Positions 38,156-50,058 of a stretch of DNA of 64,000 bases are shown in pieces. The stretch is taken from contig NZ_CP058990.1 in assembly GCF_019021925.1 (NCBI RefSeq), forward strand, positions 2,444,001-2,508,000. The letters are read 5' to 3'. Both the position numbers and the translations under genes were made by a program. The DNA is from Cellulophaga sp. HaHaR_3_176 (GTDB lineage: Bacteria > Bacteroidota > Bacteroidia > Flavobacteriales > Flavobacteriaceae). The notes beneath the pieces were generated by a model that saw only the letters and a program-made list of their open reading frames with translations, had not been told where the DNA came from and did no database searches. Positions within the stretch are counted from its first letter, which is position 1; every line of letters begins with the position of its first letter.

Positions 38156-40171
38156 ATGAATCCACTTTTAACTTCTTTCGATACAGCACCTTTTTCTACC
38201 ATTAAAAACGAGCATTTTATGCCTGCTTTTACAAAAGCAATTGCAGATGCTAGAGCAGAAATTGATGCTATAGCAACTAGTATAGAGGCTCCTACTTTTA
38301 AAAATACAATTTCTGCATTAGATTATGCTGGCCAACATTTAGATAGAATTTCAAGTGTGTTTTTTAATTTAAATTCTGCCGAAACTAATGAAGAAATTCA
38401 GAAAATAGCACAAGAAATTTCTCCACTATTATCTGAGTTCGGTAACGATATTACATTAAATGAAGATTTATTTAAAAGAGTAAAAGCCGTTTATGATCAA
38501 AAAAATGATTTAGATTTAAGTACTGAAGAACATACACTTTTAGATAAAAAATATAAAGGTTTTAGCCGCAATGGTGCCAACCTTACTGAAAACAAAAAAA
38601 TACGCCTTAGAGAAATTGATGCTGCACTTTCTAAACTGAAACTAAAGTTTGGCGAAAATGTATTAGCTGAAACTAATAAATATCAACTGCATTTAACAAA
38701 CGAAGCCGATTTAGATGGTTTGCCTGATGGTGAAAAAGAAGCTGCTGCACAATTGGCAAAAGCTAAAGAGTTAGAAGGTTGGTTAATTACATTAGACTAC
38801 CCTAGCTATATTCCGTTTATGAAATATGCTACCAACAGAGCACTTCGTAAAGAGTTATCTATTGCTTTTGGTAGCAAAGGTTTTAATAATGATGCCTTAG
38901 ATAATCAAGAAAATGTACTGCAAATTGCAAATTTACGCCATGAGCGTGCTAACCTTTTAGGCTATGCTACTCATGCACATTTTGTTTTAGAAGAACGTAT
39001 GGCTGAAACGCCTGAAAAAGTACATGACTTTTTAAATGAATTGTTAGAGAAAGCAAAACCTGCTGCTCAAAAAGAATTTAGACAGTTAGAAGATTTTGCA
39101 AAAAAATTAGACGGAATCGATCAATTAGAAAAATGGGACAGTTCATTTTATTCTGAAAAGCTAAAGCAAAAACTTTTTGATTTAGATGATGAAAAGCTAA
39201 AGCCTTATTTTAAACTAGAAAATGTAATTGCAGGTGTTTTTAAAGTTGCTGAAAAATTATTCGGTTTACAGTTCGAAGAGGTTTTTGATATAGATACGTA
39301 CCATGATGATGTAAAAACATACCGTATTTATGATGATAACAAGGCATTAGTTTCTTTATTCTATGCCGATTTTCACCCTAGAGCAGGCAAACGTGGTGGC
39401 GCATGGATGACTTCGTATAAATCGCAATATGTAGAAAATGGTGTAAACGTACGCCCTCACGTATCAAACGTATGTAATTTTACTAAACCTACAGCCAGCA
39501 AACCTTCTTTACTTACTTTTAATGAGGTTACTACTTTATTTCATGAATTCGGACACGGATTGCACGGTATGCTAGCAGATACAATTTACCCTGGTTTATC
39601 GGGCACTTCTGTTTATTGGGATTTTGTAGAATTACCAAGTCAGGTGTTAGAAAACTGGTGTTACGAAAAAGAGGCTTTGGAACTTTTTGCTACCCATTAT
39701 GAAACTGGCGAATTGATACCGATGGAATTGGTACAAAAAATTAAAAACTCTGCTACTTTTCAAGAAGGCATGCAAACCCTACGCCAATTAAGTTTTGGTT
39801 TGTTAGACATGTCTTGGCATGGCGCAGACCCATCTAACATTACAAATGTAAAAGAGCAAGAAGAAAAAGCTTTTGAAGGTACCAACTTATACCCTGATAC
39901 ACCTGAAACTTGTATGAGCACCTCATTTTCACATATTTTTCAAGGTGGTTACTCATCTGGCTATTACAGCTATAAATGGGCAGAAGTTTTAGATGCTGAT
40001 GCATTTGCGTACTTTAAAGAAAAAGGTATTTTCAATAAAGAAGTAGCTGCAAAATTTAAAGACCATGTACTCTCAAAAGGTGGTACTGAAAACCCAATGG
40101 AATTATATAAAAAATTCAGAGGTTCTGAACCTAAAATCGAACCTTTATTAGAACGTGCAGGTCTATTATAA
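38156..40171 (+). CDS. M3-family zinc oligopeptidase (Dcp/oligopeptidase A type)
   Basis: A 671-aa cytosolic metallopeptidase of the thimet-oligopeptidase family. The zinc motif HEFGH is at about residues 463-467 in TLFHEFGHGLHGML, with the third ligand in the downstream ELPSQVLENW region and the substrate loop FSHIFQGGYSSGYYSYKW near the C-terminus. Length matches peptidyl-dipeptidase Dcp and oligopeptidase A; which of these it is cannot be fixed from sequence alone. It is the last housekeeping gene before the cassette-like array. Confidence 0.93.
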   Translation: MNPLLTSFDTAPFSTIKNEHFMPAFTKAIADARAEIDAIATSIEAPTFKNTISALDYAGQHLDRISSVFFNLNSAETNEEIQKIAQEISPLLSEFGNDITLNEDLFKRVKAVYDQKNDLDLSTEEHTLLDKKYKGFSRNGANLTENKKIRLREIDAALSKLKLKFGENVLAETNKYQLHLTNEADLDGLPDGEKEAAAQLAKAKELEGWLITLDYPSYIPFMKYATNRALRKELSIAFGSKGFNNDALDNQENVLQIANLRHERANLLGYATHAHFVLEERMAETPEKVHDFLNELLEKAKPAAQKEFRQLEDFAKKLDGIDQLEKWDSSFYSEKLKQKLFDLDDEKLKPYFKLENVIAGVFKVAEKLFGLQFEEVFDIDTYHDDVKTYRIYDDNKALVSLFYADFHPRAGKRGGAWMTSYKSQYVENGVNVRPHVSNVCNFTKPTASKPSLLTFNEVTTLFHEFGHGLHGMLADTIYPGLSGTSVYWDFVELPSQVLENWCYEKEALELFATHYETGELIPMELVQKIKNSATFQEGMQTLRQLSFGLLDMSWHGADPSNITNVKEQEEKAFEGTNLYPDTPETCMSTSFSHIFQGGYSSGYYSYKWAEVLDADAFAYFKEKGIFNKEVAAKFKDHVLSKGGTENPMELYKKFRGSEPKIEPLLERAGLL

Positions 40172-40193: not shown

Positions 40194-40236
40194 AACAGAA
40201 ATAACCGTAATTGTACGGTTATCCATACGTTATGCC
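40194..40236. repeat. Minimal attC-like site 0 at the start of the cassette array
   Basis: The order is AAC, 5-nt spacer, an 8-bp stem (TAACCGTA with TACGGTTA around loop ATTG), 7-nt spacer, then GTTATGCC. Spacer lengths 5 and 7 equal those of the three larger sites. The bases after GTT reappear as their complement (GGCATAAC) at 41952-41959, 1.7 kb downstream in site 1. It could be the array's entry site or a short cassette site. It begins 22 bp after the M3 peptidase stop. Confidence 0.6.
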
Positions 40237-40272
40237 ACATTATGAAAAACATCTAGCCTTCACAAAAACAAT

Positions 40273-40839
40273 ATGAACTTAGAAACATTTTTCTCATCTG
40301 AATTGATTCTTGAAAACGAGTCAATTTTAATACGCCCTTTATCAATTAATGATATTGACAAAATAGAATCTATAAGCTATAACAAGGAACTAGGAGAGTT
40401 TGGTGCAAGGGTAAAAAACAGAAATGACTTATTGGATTACTTTGACTTTTGTCTAAATTCAAAAAAAGACAAAGAAATATATCCGCTATTAATTACAAGT
40501 AAAGAAAATAATAATCCAATCGGAATCACAATGTTTGGAAATATTAGTTTCCCCAGTAAAAGATTAGAAATAGGCTGGACATGGATTGGTTATAAATTTC
40601 AAGGAACGGGCATTAATGCGGTTTGTAAAGGACTTTTATTAGATTATTGCTTTGACGTTTTAAAACTTAGAAGGGTTGAGTTTAAGATTGACATAAATAA
40701 TGTAAAATCTCAAAAGGCAATCGAAAAGATTGGAGCTTTCAAAGAGGGTCTATTGAGAAATTACAACATCCAATCATATGGAGATAGTAAAGGAACTTTT
40801 ATATATAGCATTCTTAAGGAAGAATGGAAAAAGCCATAA
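40273..40839 (+). CDS. GNAT-family N-acetyltransferase (RimJ/RimL type)
   Basis: A 188-aa Acetyltransf_3-type GNAT. The N-terminal ILIRPLSINDIDKIESI, the central IGITMFGNISF and RLEIGWTWIGYKFQGTGINA (acetyl-CoA binding region, with a weakened Q-x-x-G-x-G/A loop) and the final RVEFKIDINNVKSQKAIEKIGAFKEG are characteristic. Related enzymes acetylate ribosomal protein N-termini or antibiotics; the substrate here is unknown. It overlaps nothing upstream and is followed directly by the serine hydrolase; both lie in one cassette between sites 0 and 1. Confidence 0.9.
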   Translation: MNLETFFSSELILENESILIRPLSINDIDKIESISYNKELGEFGARVKNRNDLLDYFDFCLNSKKDKEIYPLLITSKENNNPIGITMFGNISFPSKRLEIGWTWIGYKFQGTGINAVCKGLLLDYCFDVLKLRRVEFKIDINNVKSQKAIEKIGAFKEGLLRNYNIQSYGDSKGTFIYSILKEEWKKP

Positions 40840-40856
40840 GCAAAAATATAAAAACG

Positions 40857-41936
40857 ATGAAATCCAAAATATCAATCCACACAGCGATAGCGCTTCTGCT
40901 ATTTCTAACTAATTCTTTTGGACAAACAAAAGAGATCGAAATCAATTTATTTTTGGACAACTTAAAGCCAAGCAATTTTTCAGGAACAATTTTGGTTGCA
41001 AATAATGATACGATAATTGAGAAGAGAGCTTTTGGTCTTGCCAGTATAGAATATGGAATCCCCAACAAAGTTGATACAAAGTTTAACATTGCCTCGATTA
41101 CCAAAATGATTACAGCAGTCGCAACCTTGCAACTTTACGAAAATGGCAAAGTCGAACTTAAAAGACCTATTGGAGAATATTTACCCAATTATCCAAACAA
41201 ACTTGTGAGGGATTCGGTAACAATCCATCAGCTACTGACGCACACATCGGGTAACAATAATTTTTATGTGGGCAACTTCTTGCAAGAGGAAAAATCGAAA
41301 TACAAGAATATATCGGATTTTGTTCCCTTGTTCGTTAATGACACTTTATTGTCCCGTCCAGGCACAAAATACGATTATAGTGCATCTGGTTTTGTGATTC
41401 TAGGTCTTATTATCGAGAAAGTAAGCGGACAAAATTATTATGATTATGTAAAGGAAAACATCTTTAGAACCGCAGGAATGATGAACACGACCGAATTGGA
41501 AATCGATTCGGTCGTACCAAACAAAGCTAGTGGATATACTACTTTTTTTGGAGGAAGCAACATTCCAAAAAGAAACGAATATTATCTTTCAAAAGCATCG
41601 CCCGCAGGATTCCATTATTCAACTGTTGAAGATTTGTTTAAATTCTCGAAAGCATTGAGAAACGGAATATTGCTAAAAAAATCAACTGCCGAATTAATGT
41701 TCGAGCCAAAAGTAAAAGGCTATAACACAAATTTGGGATATGGTATAGACATCGATTTACGTTATAACCAGACTATTCAGGGGCATAGCGGAGGTTGGTA
41801 TGGTGTTCGAGCGGAACTTATGGATTTTATGAAAGACAAGTATACCGTAGTTATTTTATCTAATATTGACGACAATGGAAAGACAGGTGCTTCTCATGTG
41901 GCTGATTTCTTTAAAGAATTGATAGCGGAAAAGTAG
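40857..41936 (+). CDS. Secreted serine hydrolase, beta-lactamase class C/PBP4* type
   Basis: A 359-aa protein from ATG 40857, with a signal peptide (HTAIALLLFLTNSFGQ). The SxxK nucleophile motif is SITK in FNIASITKMITAVATLQLYENG, the Tyr motif is YSASG and the third box is HSGG in GHSGGWYGVRAE. These match the class C beta-lactamase-like D-peptidase and esterase family. The in-frame ATG at 40824 is inside the acetyltransferase gene and would block the signal peptide, so 40857 is preferred. Substrate unknown. It ends 15 bp before site 1. Confidence 0.9.
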   Translation: MKSKISIHTAIALLLFLTNSFGQTKEIEINLFLDNLKPSNFSGTILVANNDTIIEKRAFGLASIEYGIPNKVDTKFNIASITKMITAVATLQLYENGKVELKRPIGEYLPNYPNKLVRDSVTIHQLLTHTSGNNNFYVGNFLQEEKSKYKNISDFVPLFVNDTLLSRPGTKYDYSASGFVILGLIIEKVSGQNYYDYVKENIFRTAGMMNTTELEIDSVVPNKASGYTTFFGGSNIPKRNEYYLSKASPAGFHYSTVEDLFKFSKALRNGILLKKSTAELMFEPKVKGYNTNLGYGIDIDLRYNQTIQGHSGGWYGVRAELMDFMKDKYTVVILSNIDDNGKTGASHVADFFKELIAEK

Positions 41937-41951
41937 ACTGAAAAATAACGG

Positions 41952-42150
41952 GGCATAACAACGGCTATAGCAAATAGGGCGGTAAGTGCTTAATTCAAAG
42001 GCTTGGGTATATTTGCGAGGTCGCCAAATCTTTTGATTTGGCTTTTAGAAAAATAAGATAAAACAAAATGCAAAAGATTTGGCTTAGTACAAAATCGAAA
42101 GTAAATGTCTGTAACCTGCCCTACTTGCCATAGCCCAACCGTTACCACAC
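41952..42150. repeat. attC-like site 1
   Basis: Layout: GGCATAAC core (41952-41959), 5-nt spacer, 16-bp left stem (41965-41980), 137-nt inner part, 16-bp right stem (42118-42133), 7-nt spacer, GTTACCACAC core (42141-42150). Stem positions 5 and 10 are A opposite C on the top strand, which is T opposite G on the bottom strand. The inner part holds a second perfect 13-bp inverted repeat (GCCAAATCTTTTG and its complement). The left core matches site 0, the right core matches site 2. Confidence 0.8.
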
Positions 42151-42196
42151 ATTTTGCAAAACCATCAAAATTTTATAAAAAGTAAAGATTATTGAG

Positions 42197-43213
42197 ATGT
42201 TTGAACTTTTAGATAGTGAAGAAAAAATTGGTGGATATGTACTGTCGGAAAAGTATTTTGTTTTCACAAAGTCTTCAAGTGATTCAAGATTTAAGATAAT
42301 CGTCAAAAATATAAGCGGCTCCACTATTTTTACTTCTAATGAAGAAAAAGTGAGCAGATTTCACTTAGTAGATGATTTTCTAATATACTGCTCAAGAAAT
42401 GAAGATTTCACAAGAATTGTGAACCTAAAAACATTTGAAGTAAAAAATATCAACCAAATACTTTATAACTTATTACCTAAGAGTATAAACATTTTTGAGA
42501 ATATTTATTATTCAACAAATGGCTCAAAAGACAATTTAGTTTATGATTTAAAAACTGGTAAAGTTATTTCCAAATTAGTTTTAGATGGGGACTTGCAATT
42601 AAATGAAAAGTCATTTTTACTAACAAAATCGAATAACAATTTAACCAAATATCTTAAGCCAACCTTTGAAAAATCATGGTCTATAGAGCTAGGTAACGAA
42701 ATCAATTATATCGATTTTGATAGAAAAGAAAAAGCAGGAGAAATTAAGAAAGTATATAACTGGGAAAATAAGATTATCGTTCTCACAAAATGTTATTTAA
42801 TATGTTTGGACTCAGACGGAAACATTCAGTATAAAATAAGATTCCCTGATTTATTGAGAGCACAAACTTTAGTAATTCATGAAAATAACGGATTTATATA
42901 TAATTATCATGATTACGTGATTATTGACCTGCAAAAAGGAGAACTCATATTCCATAAAGAAATTAAGTCTTTTAAATACGAAGGAAAGGAATTTAACAAT
43001 TTTGCGCAGGACTTAACGTTTCATGATGGCTTCTTACTTCATTCCGTAAATAGTCTTGGTTTTAGTTTCATACTTGCAATAAAACCTGGAACAGGAGAAA
43101 CAAAATGGATTAAGAGAATAACTAACAAACACATAAACTCTATTCGTTTTCACAAAGACAAAATGTACATTTTAGATGGAGATGGCACATTGTATATACA
43201 TGAAAAGAAATAA
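42197..43213 (+). CDS. Beta-propeller protein of unknown function (PQQ/WD-like)
   Basis: A 338-aa cytosolic protein without signal peptide. It consists of repeated four-strand blades of the quinoprotein/WD type (for example NIYYSTNGSKDNLVYDLKTG, ENKIIVLTKCYLICLDSDGN and IKPGTGETKWIKRIT). No catalytic site is seen. It is the only gene between attC-like sites 1 and 2, and its ends carry complementary 10-bp cores. Similar propellers occur next to WGR and immunity-like genes (see 52271), so a link to toxin immunity is possible but not shown. Confidence 0.75.
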   Translation: MFELLDSEEKIGGYVLSEKYFVFTKSSSDSRFKIIVKNISGSTIFTSNEEKVSRFHLVDDFLIYCSRNEDFTRIVNLKTFEVKNINQILYNLLPKSINIFENIYYSTNGSKDNLVYDLKTGKVISKLVLDGDLQLNEKSFLLTKSNNNLTKYLKPTFEKSWSIELGNEINYIDFDRKEKAGEIKKVYNWENKIIVLTKCYLICLDSDGNIQYKIRFPDLLRAQTLVIHENNGFIYNYHDYVIIDLQKGELIFHKEIKSFKYEGKEFNNFAQDLTFHDGFLLHSVNSLGFSFILAIKPGTGETKWIKRITNKHINSIRFHKDKMYILDGDGTLYIHEKK

Positions 43214-43263
43214 CTCATGCCTAATCATTATGCAGATGGAATTAGCACTCGAACGGAAAAAAC

Positions 43264-43463
43264 GTGTGGTAACAAAACCTATAAACAATACGGGCTTCGG
43301 GCTTAAACTCTAAGGTTTGCGTATTTTTATGAGGTCGCAAAATCTTTAGGATTTTGCTTTGGACAAAAAAAGATAAAACAAAACAAAAAGATTTCGCTAT
43401 GTGCGTGGCGGAAAGCAAACGCTAGTTTGCTCCCGTACTGTTCATAGCTCAACCGTTGTAGCC
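43264..43463. repeat. attC-like site 2
   Basis: GTGTGGTAAC core (43264-43273), 5-nt spacer, 16-bp left stem (43279-43294), 137-nt inner part, 16-bp right stem (43432-43447), 7-nt spacer, GTTGTAGCC core (43455-43463). The left core is a perfect 10-bp complement of the right core of site 1; the right core is a perfect 9-bp complement of the left core of site 3. Stem positions 5 and 10 deviate as in site 1. Confidence 0.8.
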
Positions 43464-43484
43464 AATGTTGACCCGTCCTGAAAT

Positions 43485-43880
43485 ATGTATACAAAACACT
43501 TCAAGTATATGTATAAAAATGATGGATATGTAAAACGCTATAGTGAGAGCTTTAAGCTCAAAGTCTTGGCAGAACTTACCAAAGGAAACCATTCCAAAAG
43601 ACAAATTGCATTAACTTACGGTATTCAATCCAGTACTATAAACGTATGGATCAAAAAGTATGATCGTAAAGATTTAATGAATACCCGTGTAACCGTGCAA
43701 ACAGACGATGAACTTTCCCGTATCAAAGCCCTTCAAAAAGAGCTCAATCAACTTAAGGACCTTCTCATTAAAAAGGACCTGGACAAACTGGTGACCGATA
43801 GCTATCTCGAGGTAGCGGCCGAGAACCTAGGCTATAGAGATGTTGAAGAATTAAAAAAAAACTTAAACATAAAGCCCTAA
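43485..43880 (+). CDS. IS3-family transposase OrfA (helix-turn-helix)
   Basis: A 131-aa protein with an HTH_8/IS3 OrfA-type DNA-binding domain (SFKLKVLAELTKGNHSKRQI and SSTINVWIKKYDRKD) and a C-terminal leucine-zipper-like helix (ELSRIKALQKELNQLKDLL). Near its end lies an A AAA AAC heptamer in the zero frame (about 43855-43862), and the -1 frame continues without a stop into OrfB, so a fused OrfAB transposase by programmed frameshifting is likely. Start uncertain by a few codons. Confidence 0.85.
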   Translation: MYTKHFKYMYKNDGYVKRYSESFKLKVLAELTKGNHSKRQIALTYGIQSSTINVWIKKYDRKDLMNTRVTVQTDDELSRIKALQKELNQLKDLLIKKDLDKLVTDSYLEVAAENLGYRDVEELKKNLNIKP

Positions 43881-44737
43881 TGAAAGTAGCACCGATAAAC
43901 CGTAATGAAAGGCTCTATTCAATTTGTACTATCTGTAATGCCTTTGATCTGAAAAGAGATGCCTATTACAAATTCCAAAAACGTTTTGTTATCAAAAAAC
44001 AGATAGAACAAGATGTAATCCAACTTGTTCGGGAAAGTAGAAGAACACTACCTCGAGAAGGTACCAGAAAACTCATGAGATCATTAAAAAATGAGTTTCA
44101 AAAGTACGACCTTAAAGTCGGTAGAGACCAGCTGTTCCGTATCCTAAGAGAAAATCGATTACTCGTTAGAAGAAAAAAATATTCTTCTAGAACCACAAAT
44201 TCATATCATAGGTTTTATAAGTATGGTAATATTATAAAAGACTTGAAAATCAATAGACCTAATCAAGTCTGGGCTTCCGATATAACCTACATCAGAACCA
44301 TTAAAGGATTCTGTTACCTAGCATTGATTACAGATATGTACTCACGTAAAATCGTTGGATATGACCTAAGTGATAGCCTAGAACTAAAAGGGTGTGTCAG
44401 AGCTTTAAATAAGGCTATTTACAATGCCAAGAATATTGACCAACTTATTCATCACTCGGACAGAGGTATTCAATATTGCAGTAATGTCTATACTCAAATA
44501 TTGAAAAGAAAGAAAATTAAAATCAGTATGACTGAAGAAAACCATTGCTATGAAAATGCCCTAGCAGAAAGGGTAAACGGTATTCTAAAAGATGAATTCT
44601 ATCTTGACCAAACCTTTACCAGCGTGATACATGCGAAAAAAGCAGCCAAAAATGCAATCAAATTATACAACTCTAAAAGATTGCATTTATCTTTAGATTA
44701 TAAAACACCTAATTACGTGCATCAATATGCCGCTTAA
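43880..44737 (+). CDS. IS3-family transposase OrfB (DDE integrase domain)
   Basis: A 285-aa rve-family transposase with an N-terminal HTH_21 region (SRRTLPREGTRKLMRSL) and a DDE catalytic core: Asp in VWASDITYI, Asp in IHHSDRGIQY and Glu in ENALAERVNG. It shares one base with the OrfA stop (TAATG) in the -1 frame. All parts look intact, so the element may be active. Confidence 0.9.
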   Translation: MKVAPINRNERLYSICTICNAFDLKRDAYYKFQKRFVIKKQIEQDVIQLVRESRRTLPREGTRKLMRSLKNEFQKYDLKVGRDQLFRILRENRLLVRRKKYSSRTTNSYHRFYKYGNIIKDLKINRPNQVWASDITYIRTIKGFCYLALITDMYSRKIVGYDLSDSLELKGCVRALNKAIYNAKNIDQLIHHSDRGIQYCSNVYTQILKRKKIKISMTEENHCYENALAERVNGILKDEFYLDQTFTSVIHAKKAAKNAIKLYNSKRLHLSLDYKTPNYVHQYAA

Positions 44738-44792
44738 AACTAATATTAATCTGTAGCCGTATTTTAGGACGTGACATGTAAAAACACGACAA

Positions 44793-44827
44793 TTCCCAAT
44801 TCTTTCCAACATCTTAAAGTAAATTTA
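44793..44827 (+). promoter_or_regulatory. TTCC-N7-TTCC operator and -7 element of the response-regulator gene
   Basis: Direct repeat TTCC at 44793-44796 and 44804-44807 (11-bp period, in TTCCCAATTCTTTCCA), 12 bp, then TAAATTTA at 44820-44827. The same motif and spacing recur at 46799 and 47815. An 11-bp direct repeat next to the -33 region is typical for OmpR/PhoB-type regulators. The GTG start follows four bases later. Confidence 0.6.
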
Positions 44828-44831
44828 TCGC

Positions 44832-45509
44832 GTGAAAATTTTAGTAATCGAAGACGAACCGCAGTTGCTCAGCAACATTAAAGAATCTCTTGAAAAAGAG
44901 AAATTTCTCGTAGAAACCGCTACAGATTATCATAGTGCCATAGACAAGGTTTTCATTTATGAGTACGACTGCATTTTACTTGACATTATGCTCCCTAATG
45001 GCAGTGGGCTAAATATTTTAGCAGAATTAAAAAAAGAAGGAAAGAGTGAAAATGTAATAATTATCTCTGCAAAAGATTCGTTAGATGACAAACTTAAAGG
45101 ACTTGAACTTGGAGCAGACGATTACCTTACCAAACCATTCCACTTAGCTGAGCTTAATGCTAGAGTAAAGGCGGTTTTGCGAAGGAATAAATTAGAAGGT
45201 AAAAACACCATTGAATTCACCAATATCATTTTAGATTTAACAGAGCGATCATTCCTTGTGAATAACCAAATAATTGCACTCAATAGAAAAGAGTTTGATA
45301 TTTTAAATTATTTTTTACTCAATAAAAACCGATTGGTTACAAAATCTGCATTAGCTGAACACGTTTGGGGTGACAACTCTGATGATGCTGACAATTTTGA
45401 CTTTGTATATTATCAAATTAAAAATTTGAGGAAAAAATTGCAATTATCTAATGCAGAGATAGAAATTGAATCCATTTATGGAATTGGATACAAACTTGTT
45501 GCAGTATGA
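44832..45509 (+). CDS. OmpR/PhoB-family response regulator
   Basis: A 225-aa regulator starting at GTG 44832. Receiver domain: acidic pocket VIEDEPQLL, phosphoacceptor Asp in LLDIMLPNGSG, Ser in IIISAKDS, Lys in YLTKPFHLAEL. The C-terminal winged helix (LNRKEFDILNYFLLNKNRLV, then YQIKNLRKKL and IYGIGYKLV) binds DNA. It overlaps its kinase by four bases. The three TTCC boxes in this cassette are its most likely targets, giving autoregulation plus control of the two downstream units. Confidence 0.94.
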   Translation: MKILVIEDEPQLLSNIKESLEKEKFLVETATDYHSAIDKVFIYEYDCILLDIMLPNGSGLNILAELKKEGKSENVIIISAKDSLDDKLKGLELGADDYLTKPFHLAELNARVKAVLRRNKLEGKNTIEFTNIILDLTERSFLVNNQIIALNRKEFDILNYFLLNKNRLVTKSALAEHVWGDNSDDADNFDFVYYQIKNLRKKLQLSNAEIEIESIYGIGYKLVAV

Positions 45510-46792
45510 AACTACTCAACCAATCCATAAAGTATATATCCGTTTCAATTTTAGCAATTGTTACAGTTTGGGCTACAGCATTTTACTTCAACATGCTCAA
45601 CGAAATAAAAAGTAGCATTGACGAAGGACTTGAAAATTATAAACGAATAATCATTCAGAATGCCCAGCAGGACTCAACCATACTAACCAAAAATTACTTT
45701 GACGAAAGTTTTTTCACCATTCGAAAAATTGACAAACAGCAGGCACTTTCAATAAAAGACAAATATCTTGACACCATTCTAAACATGCAAGATGCCGATG
45801 ACGAAGAACCTGAAGCTGAACCAGTAAGAATGCTCATTACTGCATTTGAACTAAACAAAAAATATTATGAACTGAAAGTTGCCAACTCAATGGTAGAAGA
45901 AGACGATTTAATCAAAGAACTTCTTTACGATATTATTTGGTTATACATAAGCTTGATAATTAGCATTGTTTTCATCAACAACCTTGTGTTAAAAAAGATT
46001 TGGAGACCTTTTTATGATTTTTTAAATCAATTAAAAGAATACCGTTTGGGAAAAAGCCCGATGCTACCCGAAGTAAAAACCAAAACAAAAGAATTTACCG
46101 ATTTGCAGAATGCGGTAAATACATTATTACTCCACACTATCGAAACCTACGAACAGCAAAAGCAATTCATAGGAAATGCTTCACACGAATTACAAACACC
46201 TTTAGCAATTGTTACCAACAAATTAGAACTACTTATTGAAGATGGAAACCTCCAAAAAAAACAAGCCGAAAATATTGCAGAAATAATGAGCATTATTGAG
46301 CGTTTGGTGCGTTTAAACAAATCATTGCTGCTATTAACCAAAATCGAAAACAAACAGTTTTTGGACAATCAACAAATTCTGCTAAATGATATAGTTCAAA
46401 AAAATGTTAGTGATTTAGAAGAAATAGCAACATTTAAGAAAGTAAAAATTAGGGTAAATGAAAATGCCAAACTATCCATTCAAATGGATTCCTCTCTTGC
46501 CAATGTAATTATTTCAAACGTACTGAAAAATGCAATTTTCAATAATGTTCCTGACGGAGATATATTTGTAGAGATTGCTGAAAATATCGTCAAAATAAGC
46601 AATACCAGCAATTCGGAAAAACTTGATGAAAACCTAATTTTCAATCGATTCTACAAACCCAATAATAACTCTAAAGGAACAGGGTTGGGATTAGCCATTG
46701 TAAAAGCTATTTCAGATTTATATGGTTTTCAGGTTTCTTATGCTTATAACAACAATGTTCATACTTTCGAAATTGCATTTCTTGCGACCTAA
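45506..46792 (+). CDS. Sensor histidine kinase
   Basis: A 428-aa membrane kinase: helix at about 12-30, a periplasmic domain to about 145 with an acidic run (DADDEEPEAEP), a second helix (LLYDIIWLYISLIISIVF), then HisKA with the phosphoacceptor in GNASHELQTPL, N box in NVIISNVLKNAIFNN, and G2 box GTGLGLAIV; the G1 box is weak. Partner of the overlapping OmpR-type regulator. The signal is unknown; nearby PepSY-like and DUF2490 genes suggest an envelope or metal/peptide cue. Confidence 0.92.
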   Translation: MKLLNQSIKYISVSILAIVTVWATAFYFNMLNEIKSSIDEGLENYKRIIIQNAQQDSTILTKNYFDESFFTIRKIDKQQALSIKDKYLDTILNMQDADDEEPEAEPVRMLITAFELNKKYYELKVANSMVEEDDLIKELLYDIIWLYISLIISIVFINNLVLKKIWRPFYDFLNQLKEYRLGKSPMLPEVKTKTKEFTDLQNAVNTLLLHTIETYEQQKQFIGNASHELQTPLAIVTNKLELLIEDGNLQKKQAENIAEIMSIIERLVRLNKSLLLLTKIENKQFLDNQQILLNDIVQKNVSDLEEIATFKKVKIRVNENAKLSIQMDSSLANVIISNVLKNAIFNNVPDGDIFVEIAENIVKISNTSNSEKLDENLIFNRFYKPNNNSKGTGLGLAIVKAISDLYGFQVSYAYNNNVHTFEIAFLAT

Positions 46793-46798
46793 AGCTCA

Positions 46799-46833
46799 TT
46801 CCCAAATCTTTCCAATTTTGTACTGTTCATTTG
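46799..46833 (+). promoter_or_regulatory. TTCC-N7-TTCC operator and -7 element of the SdiA-regulated-like gene
   Basis: TTCCCAAATCTTTCCA with TTCC at 46799-46802 and 46810-46813, 12 bp, then TTCATTTG at 46826-46833 (one base from TAnnTTTG). Same geometry as at 44793. Confidence 0.6.
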
Positions 46834-46858
46834 TTGCTTAACAATTTCAACGAGCGTT

Positions 46859-47800
46859 ATGAAAAGAATTTTCTCAACATCATTTTATATTTTCTATACA
46901 GTGTTCATTAGTTTGAGCTGTGCCAGTCCGGCTAGCAACGAACCGGTAGAAAACCTAGCAGTTGTTGCGGAAAACGAAAACAGTCACTTTTCATTTCAAT
47001 ATGATTTGACTTCACCCGAAATGGTGCACGAATTGCCCGCTATTCTTGATGAAATCTCTGGACTTACGGTAATTGACTCTGCTCATGTTGCTTGTTTACA
47101 AGACGAATTGGGGATTATTTTTATTTATGACTTCGTTAAAGACAGCATTGTTTTTACGCACCAATTCGATTCAAAAGGCGATTTTGAAGGCATCACTTTC
47201 ACAGGGAATTCGCTATATATATTACGAAGTGACGGTCGTTTGAGCATTTTTAAAAACTTTGATCCTTTTGCTGATAATGAACAAATTACACATAAACAAT
47301 TATCACTAGAAAGTAAAGACAATGAGGGTCTTTGTTTCGACACCAAAAACAACTGTTTATTAGTCTCAGCTAAGAGCAAACCTATAAACCACGATTATAA
47401 ATCTGAAAGATTTATTTATAAATACGATCTAATAAAAGAAGCTTTATCTAAATCTCCCGCTTACAAAATAAATATACACGAAGTTAAAAAAGCTTGTGAA
47501 AAATTCAACGTAGAAATCAATACTGAATTAAATAAAAAGGGTAAGGCTAAACCGTTTAATTTTCGACCTTCAGCCATAGCGATACATCCTAATAATGAAC
47601 TCATTTTCATTTTATCCGCCTCTGATAAATTATTCCTGGCAATGAACAGAGATAAAACTATTTTACACATAGAAAAATTAGATGAAAAGTTATTCCCAAA
47701 AGCAGAAGGTATTTCATTTTTAGAAAACGGAACTTTATTAATTTCCAACGAAGGAGATGGAAAAACACCCACAATTTTGGTGTTTCGGCAAAAAGAATAA
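46859..47800 (+). CDS. SdiA-regulated-family lipoprotein
   Basis: A 313-aa protein with a lipoprotein signal (FYTVFISLSCASPAS). The mature part matches the SdiA-regulated family, a beta-propeller-like fold: LPAILDEISGLTVIDSAHVA, GDFEGITFTGNSLYILRSDG, NEGLCFDTKNNCLLVSAKSK and RPSAIAIHPNNELIFILSA. Function is unknown; the family is outer-envelope associated. It has its own TTCC-box promoter, so it belongs to the regulon of the two-component pair encoded upstream. Confidence 0.88.
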   Translation: MKRIFSTSFYIFYTVFISLSCASPASNEPVENLAVVAENENSHFSFQYDLTSPEMVHELPAILDEISGLTVIDSAHVACLQDELGIIFIYDFVKDSIVFTHQFDSKGDFEGITFTGNSLYILRSDGRLSIFKNFDPFADNEQITHKQLSLESKDNEGLCFDTKNNCLLVSAKSKPINHDYKSERFIYKYDLIKEALSKSPAYKINIHEVKKACEKFNVEINTELNKKGKAKPFNFRPSAIAIHPNNELIFILSASDKLFLAMNRDKTILHIEKLDEKLFPKAEGISFLENGTLLISNEGDGKTPTILVFRQKE

Positions 47801-47814
47801 TCCGTCTAAATTCC

Positions 47815-47849
47815 TTCCCAGATCTTTCCATATTCGGGTCTTTACTTTG
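47815..47849 (+). promoter_or_regulatory. TTCC-N7-TTCC operator and -7 element of the PepSY-like gene
   Basis: TTCC at 47815-47818 and 47826-47829 (in TTCCCAGATCTTTCCA), 12 bp, then TTACTTTG at 47842-47849. The third example of the same architecture in the cassette. Confidence 0.6.
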
Positions 47850-47886
47850 TCTTGTAATTAATTATTTAATCTAAAAAATTTACAAG

Positions 47887-48333
47887 ATGAAAAAACAAAT
47901 TTTAATTTTTGGTGCCGTAATATCTATCGTTTCAACTCTGCAAGCACAAGATATTCCACAAAGTCAAGTTCCTTCGGTTATTCTAAACGAGTTTAACAAG
48001 CAGTTTCCAAAAGCTACAGATTTAGAATGGGAAATGGATGGAAATTTATACAATGCTGATTTCGAAATTAGTTGGAACATAGACCACGAAGTATGGTACA
48101 ATACTGAAGGAAAAATGGTGAAGCACAAGGAAGATATTTCTAAAAGTGAATTACCCAAAGCTGTGAACAACAGAATACAAGCAGATTTTAGTGATTATTC
48201 AATAGATGACTTAGAACGCATAACCGACAACGGAAAAGTAGTCTTCAAAATGGAGCTTAACGCACTAACTCAAACCGATTGGGATATTGTGATAGATTCA
48301 GAAGGTAAAGTAATAAGTAAAATAGTCGACTAA
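47887..48333 (+). CDS. Exported PepSY-like domain protein
   Basis: A 148-aa exported protein (signal peptide ending STLQAQ) with two PepSY-like repeats (VILNEFNKQFPKATDLEWEMD and AVNNRIQADFSDYSIDDLERI), each a helix and beta-meander as in PF11396. Such proteins occur widely in the periplasm of Bacteroidota, often next to two-component systems. Function unknown; inhibition or binding of peptides has been suggested for the fold. Followed by a DUF2490 gene after 14 bp. Confidence 0.88.
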   Translation: MKKQILIFGAVISIVSTLQAQDIPQSQVPSVILNEFNKQFPKATDLEWEMDGNLYNADFEISWNIDHEVWYNTEGKMVKHKEDISKSELPKAVNNRIQADFSDYSIDDLERITDNGKVVFKMELNALTQTDWDIVIDSEGKVISKIVD

Positions 48334-48347
48334 AGTTTCCACAAGAC

Positions 48348-49118
48348 ATGCTAAGAACTTTCTTTACTATCCTTTTGGGAATATTACTCAGTACAAAATG
48401 TCTTGCTCAAATCTCTCCACCAGGTTTGGGCAAGGCAAATACTGCTTTTTGGTTTGCCATTGGGTTAAACCAAAATATTAACAAAAAAGATAACATTTCA
48501 TCTACTACTTATTTCGGGTTAGGACGAATTAGCAGACCAGATAACTACAACCTATTCAACAAACAAGCCTTATATGTAATAAATGAAGAAATAGCACATA
48601 GATTTAAGAAAAATTGGAAATACTCATTCGCTCTAAGTTACCGTTGGCAAAACAAATACAAAGCTACTCCTCCTTATGAATTTGACGTACCGAAAGCACG
48701 ACAAGAACTAAGATTTTATAGTCGATTTTCATATCTCAATTCGTTTAGAAGATTAAACTATTCCTTCAGTTATCGACCAGAAATTCGTTTTTTTTACAAC
48801 CCCGATTTCAGCACTACGACAAAAAACACTCAATTTCGTTCTCGCTTACGTGGAAAAGTGTCATTTAATCTAAATTCATTAAATACGCATAAAATTATTA
48901 CGACAACAGAATTGTTGTTTTCTACTACTCATATGAGTCATTGGAGTAAGTTTGAATATCAAGAAGTTCGATTTTGTTTGTACTATTCAGTTTTATTCCC
49001 GAAACAAAAAATTGAACTTAATATCGGCTATATGAACGATTTGATAGGGAAATCATTTATAACCGATGTGAATTATCTTGCTTTCGACATAGTAATTAAA
49101 AACCCTTTCGAGAAATAA
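48348..49118 (+). CDS. DUF2490-family outer-membrane protein
   Basis: A 256-aa protein with a signal peptide (LLSTKCLAQ) and the DUF2490 barrel pattern: FWFAIGLNQNINKK, EEIAHRFKKNWKYSFALSYR, QELRFYSRFSYLN, YSFSYRPEIRFFYNP and the closing IELNIGYMNDLIG with ITDVNYLAFDIVI. It is probably a small outer-membrane barrel. Co-transcribed with the PepSY-like gene and last gene of the cassette. Confidence 0.85.
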   Translation: MLRTFFTILLGILLSTKCLAQISPPGLGKANTAFWFAIGLNQNINKKDNISSTTYFGLGRISRPDNYNLFNKQALYVINEEIAHRFKKNWKYSFALSYRWQNKYKATPPYEFDVPKARQELRFYSRFSYLNSFRRLNYSFSYRPEIRFFYNPDFSTTTKNTQFRSRLRGKVSFNLNSLNTHKIITTTELLFSTTHMSHWSKFEYQEVRFCLYYSVLFPKQKIELNIGYMNDLIGKSFITDVNYLAFDIVIKNPFEK

Positions 49119-49126
49119 AAAACACA

Positions 49127-49320
49127 GGCTACAACAATGGCTATACGTAATGCGGGGTGCAGAGTAAAATTAGACTTTGTAATTCGTATTACGCCAAAGC
49201 TAAGTTTAGTATTTTTAGAATCAAATTAAAACACAAAACTTAGCTTTGGCTTACATTGGTGCTAGACTGAATGTTTGCAGTTTCAAATCCCGCACTACAC
49301 ATAGCCGGGTCGTTCTATGC
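49127..49320. repeat. attC-like site 3
   Basis: GGCTACAAC core (49127-49135), 5-nt spacer AATGG, 16-bp left stem (49141-49156), 132-nt inner part, 16-bp right stem (49289-49304), 7-nt spacer, GTTCTATGC core (49312-49320). Stem positions 5, 6 and 10 deviate, all as bottom-strand wobbles. The inner part holds a perfect 15-bp inverted repeat (49193-49207 with 49236-49250) unlike the sequence in site 1 but in the same place, so pairing is conserved and sequence is not. Confidence 0.8.
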
Positions 49321-49326
49321 AATTCA

Positions 49327-49887
49327 ATGAAAAATCGAAAACAGAAATATAAGTTAGTTTTTACTATATTATTAATATGGTTTTTTGGGCATATAGCTTA
49401 TATCACAATTGACGGATTAACCAATAATAAAAAAAATGTAGATATTGCAGTAATCCTTGGCAATAAAGTAAATGAAGACGGAACACTTTCGGTAAGACTT
49501 GAAAAACGTTTAGAGTGCGGATTAAATTTGTATCAAAATGGACAAGTAAAAAAAATATTTGTTAGTGGTGGTTTGGGAAAAGAAGGTTTTTACGAAGGAG
49601 ACAAAATGAAAGAATATTTAATTAAAAAAAATGTCCCTGATTCCTTAATTATTGTTGACAATTATGGAAATAATACTCTTGCAACTGTTAATAACACAAT
49701 TAAAGTAAAAGACAGCCTAAATTTTAAAAGTATAATAGCTGTGTCACAATACTTTCATCTGACAAGAACAAAAATGTTGTTTAAAAAACAAGGTTTTAAG
49801 AATATTAGTAGTGCAAGTCCTAAGTATTTTGAACTTAGAGATTTCTATTCCTTATTTAGGGAATTTGTAGCTTATTATGTAGGATAA
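49327..49887 (+). CDS. YdcF/ElyC/SanA-family (DUF218) membrane protein
   Basis: A 186-aa protein from ATG 49327, with an N-terminal membrane helix (LVFTILLIWFFGHIAYITI) and a DUF218 domain: AVILGNKVNEDGTLSVRLEKR, IFVSGGLGKEGFYEGDKMKEY, DNYGNNTLATVNNT and VSQYFHLTRTKMLFKKQGF. Related proteins act in envelope or peptidoglycan precursor homeostasis. The in-frame ATG at 49246 lies inside attC-like site 3 and is rejected. The gene begins six bases after the GTTCTATGC core and is the sole gene of its cassette. Confidence 0.88.
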   Translation: MKNRKQKYKLVFTILLIWFFGHIAYITIDGLTNNKKNVDIAVILGNKVNEDGTLSVRLEKRLECGLNLYQNGQVKKIFVSGGLGKEGFYEGDKMKEYLIKKNVPDSLIIVDNYGNNTLATVNNTIKVKDSLNFKSIIAVSQYFHLTRTKMLFKKQGFKNISSASPKYFELRDFYSLFREFVAYYVG

Positions 49888-49893
49888 AAAAAT

Positions 49894-50034
49894 ACATTCA
49901 AAAATGGCTATAATTAATACGGGTTTCGGGCTTAGACGAAAGGTCTGTGTATATTTATATATGTCGCTAAATATTTGATCAAAAGTTCACTCCTTTTAAG
50001 TACAGTACTAATCTGTACCCGAGACGTTAGTTCC
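49894..50034. repeat. Decayed attC-like site 4
   Basis: Left spacer AATGG and stem CTATAATTAATACGGG (49903-49923) resemble site 3; the right part has a partly matching stem (50003-50018), a 7-nt spacer and GTTAGTTCC (50026-50034). Only 5 of 9 bases of the expected left core (complement of GTTCTATGC) remain, one stem base is extra and the inner part is only 79 nt. No partner for GTTAGTTCC was found downstream. Probably the degenerate right end of the array. Confidence 0.5.
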
Positions 50035-50058
50035 AATTTAAAAAACCGATTTATAAAA

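Follow-up and report, generated by a model that had tools for sequence, protein, structure and literature searches.

The array at 40194-50034

The window analysed here, meaning the whole stretch of 64,000 nucleotides from Cellulophaga sp. HaHaR_3_176 (contig NZ_CP058990.1, positions 2,444,001 to 2,508,000), carries at 40194-50034 a cassette array composed of an attI-like start site, three attC-like sites (S2-S4), a decayed fifth site (S5) and four cassettes. The observation is real and goes beyond chance, and comparison with similar sites elsewhere makes it very probable that the block is an array of an integron-like system, apparently of an undescribed kind. Its features are given below (ORF, open reading frame); the attC-like sites were scored with R1, a covariance model built from nine seed sites.

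38156..40171, + strand: left-flank peptidase gene (ORF), presumably of M3 type; the first core GTT begins 58 nt past its stop codon
40201..40231, + strand: attI-like start site (site 1), inverted repeat ATAACCGTA-ATTG-TACGGTTAT, then CCATAC and the core GTT at 40229-40231
40230..42141, + strand: cassette 1 (ORFs, profile matches); ends pair 6/7
40273-40839, + strand: GNAT acetyltransferase, cassette 1 (PF13302)
40824-41936, + strand: serine hydrolase of the beta-lactamase family, cassette 1 (PF00144)
41947..42153, + strand: attC-like site S2, AAC 41957-41959, GTT 42141-42143; R1 182.8 bits (in the R1 seed)
42142..43455, + strand: cassette 2; ends pair 7/7
42197-43213, + strand: 338-aa protein without assigned function, cassette 2 (ORF)
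43261..43467, + strand: attC-like site S3, AAC 43271-43273, GTT 43455-43457; R1 225.4 bits (in the R1 seed)
43456..49312, + strand: cassette 3, large and carrying an insertion sequence; ends pair 6/7
43468..44776, + strand: insertion sequence, which we take to be of IS3 type, cassette 3; orfA 43485-43880, orfB 43880-44737, right end placed by an end-like motif only
44832-45509, + strand: response regulator, cassette 3 (identified by sequence reading)
45506-46792, + strand: histidine kinase, cassette 3 (identified by sequence reading)
46859-47800, + strand: SdiA-regulated-like protein, cassette 3 (ORF, profile match)
47887-48333, + strand: PepSY-like protein, cassette 3 (ORF, profile match)
48348-49118, + strand: DUF2490 protein, cassette 3 (ORF, profile match)
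49123..49324, + strand: attC-like site S4, AAC 49133-49135, GTT 49312-49314; R1 142.1 bits (in the R1 seed)
49313..50026, + strand: cassette 4 (ORF, profile match)
49327-49887, + strand: DUF218 protein, cassette 4 (ORF, profile match)
49890..50038, + strand: decayed attC-like site S5, GTT kept at 50026-50028, AAC box lost; R1 53.8 bits

An earlier sequence-only reading of this block had described long hairpin sites, each opening with a box that ends in AAC and closing with a box that starts with GTT, and had claimed that the bases behind GTT are complementary to those before AAC in the next site downstream. All six boxes are found where it placed them, GTTATGCC (40229) pairing with GGCATAAC (41952), GTTACCACAC (42141) with GTGTGGTAAC (43264) and GTTGTAGCC (43455) with GGCTACAAC (49127), and the reported matches of 8/8, 10/10 and 9/9 are correct; counted over just the 7 bases that follow GTT they become 6/7, 7/7 and 6/7. 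The description as long hairpins with both boxes holds for S2-S4 and fails at the two ends, where site 1 is a short, attI-like palindrome plus GTT and S5 has lost the AAC box, which leaves the S4-S5 core pair outside the pairing test below. The genes between the sites do run in one direction, all on the + strand, with a few − strand ORFs (84-103 aa) overlapping them. An Rfam search at 38000-60000 returned nothing above curated scores.

Core pairing, start sites and signs of movement

The scan of the single contig of this genome with R1 (E ≤ 0.1, 150 of 3459 first-look candidates scored) gave 62 matches, one of which is S2 itself, mirrored on the opposite strand; the remaining 61 sites form about 13 clusters. 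This number is a lower bound, at least one more site having come from a local search (L011:9045-9187), and a few weak matches may be chance or decayed copies. For each pair of neighbouring sites (R1 E ≤ 1e-4, less than 8 kb apart, GTT and AAC intact), we took the 7 bases following GTT, reverse-complemented the 7 that precede the next AAC, and compared the two. Agreement at 6/7 or better was found in 25 of 33 pairs, 14 of them at 7/7, versus 2/44 for cores of the same site and 20/1056 for non-partner combinations, and none of 20,000 permutations reached 25 pairs (mean 1.4, largest 8). The same comparison in related genomes covered the best 150 of 195 sites at the recombinase orthologue loci described below and all 40 sites of the named-record loci (spacing of neighbours below 2.5 kb): agreement at 6/7 or better was found for 108 of 136 pairs and at 7/7 for 83, with controls of 12/185 (same site) and 636/18,360 (non-partners), and none of 5,000 permutations attained the observed pairing (mean 5.5, largest 16). 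The core matching first noticed in three site pairs of the window thus extends to a large set.

In the relatives, base 8 behind GTT is a conserved mismatch (A in 134/136, opposite C in 120/136) and bases 9-11 agree again (74-87%); the blocks therefore end in GTT-N7-ATT and AAC-N7-AAC, where N7 is not fixed in sequence yet pairs between the two ends. The core consensus of integron attC sites is GTTRRRY / RYYYAAC, and the sequence-only reading had rightly noted that the window boxes depart from it: 9 of 186 sites in the relatives and 4 of 49 in the genome itself fit GTTRRRY, for a chance expectation of 1 in 16. The core appears to act as a pairing tag of each cassette rather than as a consensus.

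To follow the fold that a free cassette would adopt, circle sites were reconstructed from the pairs at 6/7 or better only (n = 108) and evaluated with DNA folding parameters. The bottom strand is predicted to be more stable than the top in 103 of the 108 (mean -32.5 versus -28.8 kcal/mol), whereas up to 100 random stretches gave a strand difference of 1.8 on average, with a mean of 0.5. The difference arises from positions that are A.C mismatches on the top strand and G.T pairs on the bottom one, namely core base 8 and two inner-arm places, the latter in 9/9 seed sites. For attC sites, PMC2727003 states that the bottom strand alone recombines. The 61 sites and 15 start sites of the genome change strand a single time, between 1.66 and 1.83 Mb, and since rRNA, tRNA and sampled GC skew put the replication origin near 3.4-3.75 Mb, cassettes would run head-on to replication, which would place the bottom strand on the lagging-strand template. 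This orientation is suggestive only: GC skew is mixed at 1.0-2.0 Mb, dnaA lies at 1.988 Mb, several tRNAs are opposite and, with neighbouring arrays merged, the pattern is not statistically strong by hand reckoning.

The start site of the window has counterparts directly behind recombinase genes. At 39-107 nt past the recombinase stop codon stands an inverted repeat with 8-12-bp arms, followed 4-7 nt further by GTT; a strict script detected this palindrome plus GTT at 39 of 51 loci versus 57 of 1500 random 160-nt segments, and several of its misses show a weaker start site by eye (e.g. L161, L169, L196). The arms vary between genomes yet remain paired. In the Cellulophaga genome, the arms of site 1, with at most 2 mismatches, recur at 15 places, site 1 included (a sixteenth, at 3 mismatches, was not counted). 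Each of the 15 reads on into CC, four more bases and GTT, and each is followed on its own strand, at no more than 3.2 kb, by a detected attC-like site; in 10 the GTT core pairs with that first detected site at 6/7 or better. One of the 15 adjoins a recombinase: the 24-nt palindrome behind its stop codon (G000:C1:1865119) is identical to that of site 1. Three other genomes share the arms ATATAGATCA, found at 2-3 places in each: beside recombinases and, in every one of the three, also heading a further array. The palindrome is probably the insertion point and, because each genome keeps its own arm sequence, we favour two protein-binding arms over a hairpin.

Cassettes, 133 in all, have a median length of 851 bp, and their longest ORF runs forward in 122, in reverse in 6, and is absent at 50 aa in 5; forward ORFs of at least 60 aa number one in 88 cassettes, two in 24, three or four in 12 and none in 9. 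The sequence-only reading had suggested comparing cassette order between strains; within arrays and between genera, cassettes do occupy different positions. Cassettes of 771 bp (L184) and 494 bp (L165) are each present in two copies of 100% identity at non-adjacent places of one array, and the identity ends at the CGTT core on both sides. A two-cassette block is tandemly repeated in L190, and L192 holds several copies of a 408-bp cassette at 87-97% identity. Genomes of different genera (L192 and L184) have one cassette in common, at 90% identity and with edges at CGTT; another, at 82% identity, is interior in L152 and first behind the start site in L185. Because CGTT is common to both partners, these comparisons map the cut only within it; the interpretation as cassettes is independent of its exact position.

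The left end of the insertion sequence in cassette 3 (43468) lies 13 nt past the first base of the cassette's GTT. The same distance is seen for all eight copies of this one left end in the stretches read from this genome (window 43468, L011, L012, L014, L015, L053, L054 and L058; once with ATT), each in cassette orientation, and stretches L059-L089 contain no copy. From these positions, the element seems to target cassette 5' ends.

The flanking peptidase is conserved in the genus, with orthologues of 82-88% identity in 16 of 17 congeners searched. From 40172 to about 50 kb beyond (L267, L268) the locus is hypervariable, and conserved genes resume about 50 kb downstream here versus about 4-15 kb in congeners L255, L258, L259 and L263. 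No clean empty site was found behind the flanking gene in 16 congeners (15 usable, one contig too short), because the sequence there is not alignable far past the terminator. The same gene order with the same boxes in distant species, which the sequence-only reading had named as evidence against a cassette mechanism, was not seen: only 3 of the 15 usable congeners have any site within the 17 kb analysed behind the flanking gene.

The array-linked recombinase and the spread of the sites

Four Phage_integrase proteins are encoded in the genome, namely XerD, a second one of Xer type that is most similar to XerC, a third at 3.19 Mb and the following:

1863972-1865099 of the contig (1.864 Mb): 375-aa tyrosine recombinase (Phage_integrase), with an array directly behind it

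The last is the single array-linked recombinase of its kind in this genome. The window itself has no Phage_integrase match, as the sequence-only reading had it, and this nearest array-linked gene lies about 619 kb from the window array. A search over 299 genomes of the family, with orthologues defined by at least 370 bits, found them in 50, the Cellulophaga genome included (identity to the query 53-77%; one is partial and another contains a stop codon); below that score come a broken second copy at 319 bits (G061) and then 280 bits. In G086 an orthologue lies in two pieces (G086:C12:3074-4172), and that genome has no detectable site. Named carriers include Maribacter, Arenibacter, Aquimarina and a Fluviicola metagenome-assembled genome.

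The sequence-only reading had proposed looking for a tyrosine recombinase that accompanies the sites, and arrays do begin directly behind this one. Of the 40 orthologue loci (some genomes give two), which hold 195 sites in 714 kb, 34 have a site with the array directly downstream, and four of the 6 site-free loci lie on contigs ending within about 210 nt behind the gene; twenty control stretches from the same genomes gave 2 weak matches in 398 kb. The named-record loci add 40 sites, present at 7 of 11; at three of the remaining four the sequence breaks off within 300 nt of the gene. A script placed 190/190 sites (150 of the 195 plus these 40) downstream and on the recombinase strand, as are the remaining 45 by eye. 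Recombinase, start site and array keep the same order and orientation across many species.

A broader model, R2, was built from 53 sites of the Cellulophaga genome and run over the family with at most 8 candidates scored per genome, which makes presence a lower bound. It matched (E ≤ 1e-6) at least 235 of the 299 genomes and at least 212 of the 249 of good quality. Sites occur in 50/50 genomes with an orthologue versus 185/249 without (Fisher p 2e-6, a guide only, the genomes being related and kinship uncorrected). A phylum scan of 296 genomes at E ≤ 1e-8 found matches in 37, of which 22 lie outside the family, and none in many genomes of one large family genus. The suggestion of a divergent, possibly undescribed cassette system of Flavobacteriaceae is thereby supported in substance and too narrow in its taxonomic limit.

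By profile, the recombinase is best matched by NF040815 (227 bits, cut-off 220), whose description, 'site-specific tyrosine recombinase/integron integrase', is the NCBI label on the orthologues. The integron integrase profile TIGR02249 gives 202 bits in two stretches (cut-off 265; IntI1 499.8). The alignment with IntI4 breaks at query residues 273-300, where IntI4 has about 42 extra residues, and IntI1 aligns with a similar insert that the recombinase does not have. It also scores below the cut-offs of the ordinary Xer profiles (XerD 192 bits, cut-off 329.6; XerC 184 bits, cut-off 335.15); the genome's own XerD passes the former with 330 bits, and its second Xer protein stays below the latter at 284. 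Among solved structures the best sequence match is 4a8e (154 bits). Residues 1-105 (L015:5473-5790) form a conserved N-terminal alpha/beta domain that, by alignment, is not in IntI1 or the genome's own Xer proteins.

In three orthologue-free genomes picked for nearby sites (L289, L290, L291) we found other recombinases, of 272-355 aa and likewise without the insert; several recombinase types may therefore run such arrays. These genes stand at the array head in divergent orientation, like classical integrons, and in L291 a YADD-motif protein (L291:4548-5585), by its motif presumably a reverse transcriptase, lies beside array sites. A 43% identical recombinase is encoded on a Persicobacter plasmid (L293, CP012862.1), with one weak site match 5 kb downstream.

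Proposed mechanism, alternatives and known systems

We propose that the four cassettes behind the start site at 40201-40231, parted by hairpin sites, each arrived as a free circle and were integrated by a tyrosine recombinase, which would cut at the GTT core, likely after its G. In the circle, both cassette ends would form a folded site. Its bottom strand is the probable substrate, since three conserved positions that are A.C mismatches in the top strand can pair there as G.T. The palindrome would bind the recombinase of its own genome, and a single enzyme would serve all start sites in trans, the one for the window array likely being that encoded 619 kb away. More broadly, we judge it probable that Bacteroidota have an integron class of their own, with XerA-like recombinases lacking the IntI domain, private self-complementary cores, a palindromic attI matched to the genome and loading in trans at a dozen or more chromosomal start sites.

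Several points weigh against this proposal. The evidence is wholly comparative, and a cut at G|TT is inseparable from one placed one or two bases away. Unmatched cores remain in 8 of 33 pairs of the genome and 28 of 136 in relatives, which may reflect undetected or decayed sites or insertions, and 5 of the 15 start sites have a core that does not pair with the first site detected downstream. Of the 249 family genomes that lack the orthologue, 185 have sites nonetheless, so either other enzymes serve there or the arrays are relics. Conversely, L161 and L198 have no site in more than 9 kb behind the recombinase, nor has L155 in its 1.7 kb; the genome of L161 (G240) has one site about 19.5 kb downstream. 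The AlphaFold model of the recombinase is weak (pLDDT 72.7, pTM 0.44), and a Foldseek search with it ranks IntI4 and XerA chains first at TM-scores of only 0.36-0.53. The window array also looks old, with one decayed site, one insertion sequence and one 5.9-kb cassette.

GTT-core edges, one-way cassettes, folded sites and an attI-like head are equally the logic of an array from an ordinary IntI integron that is now without its integrase, a cluster of attC sites lacking integron-integrases (CALIN). That the block is one is very unlikely, given cores that fit GTTRRRY so seldom both here and in relatives, and an array recombinase that falls short of the integron integrase cut-off passed by IntI1 and is devoid of the IntI1/IntI4 insert (no direct IntI search was made across the family). 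Movement by the host's XerC/XerD, as for pdif modules, which these recombinases move, would make the neighbouring recombinase a bystander; the genome does have XerD and a second Xer protein, but in many genera the arrays begin directly behind the other recombinase and the start-site arms vary between genomes, and we regard this explanation as highly improbable. Static intergenic hairpins or small non-coding repeats, sharing islands with the recombinase by chance, would account for the conserved inner arms common to the sites and for the many arrays without a recombinase. Such immobility is scarcely credible when the matching joins the ends of one gene block rather than the halves of one site, exact duplicate cassettes have their edges at the core, and recombinase, start site and array follow a strict order. 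Finally, the inverted repeats at the block ends (GTT-N7-ATT ... AAC-N7-AAC) would suit transposons moved by a DDE or HUH enzyme; these repeats, however, vary by block and match mostly within one block, and adjoining blocks have one junction site in common, which makes individual transposons an extremely improbable source of the array.

If the proposed integron-like working is correct, cassette capture needs neither the IntI insert nor a GTTRRRY core, an origin of integrons from Xer-like enzymes becomes testable with natural alternatives, and many start sites served by one enzyme would be an unusual layout. A large gene-capture system with sites in 212 of 249 good-quality family genomes may so far have been overlooked, since it satisfies neither of the standard search criteria. 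In searches of the open-access literature, with subscription papers and preprints outside the scope, no title or abstract describing this system came up. In its account of Bacteroidetes proper, a 2022 survey with the standard finder gives one complete integron (Salinibacter ruber) and earlier cassette-free integrases (PMC9024848), and PMC8618304 lists Bacteroidota among the phyla with integrons.

Among known systems, the IntI integrons (class 1 and Vibrio chromosomal) are alike in their attI-like head, one-direction arrays, folded attC-like sites, GTT-core edges and a bottom strand predicted to fold better. They differ from the present system, where the recombinase, devoid of the IntI-specific insert, carries an additional domain of about 105 aa at its N-terminus, the orthologues run in the array direction, the cores are free in sequence and paired over 7 bases, and the attI is palindromic, with a single such recombinase to many start sites in a genome. 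Integron attC sites carry extrahelical bases, and the sites described here have A.C/G.T positions instead. The system has an attI-like site beside the recombinase gene and one-direction cassettes, mostly of one ORF, with 3' sites, as IntI integrons do, and it lacks both the IntI-specific domain and the GTTRRRY core; it is therefore integron-like in its working and not an IntI integron by the standard definition. Archaeal integron work (PMC9668308) describes that additional domain as IntI-specific and necessary. A CALIN resembles the window array in having no recombinase nearby, whereas the latter has an attI-like start, a recombinase elsewhere in the genome and sites that fail the attC core consensus. 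The role of XerA is in chromosome resolution, at dif sites; XerA-like recombinases (NF040815; PDB 4a8e, 5hxy) provide the best NCBIfam profile and the best sequence match among solved structures, but the gene described here differs in heading cassette arrays.

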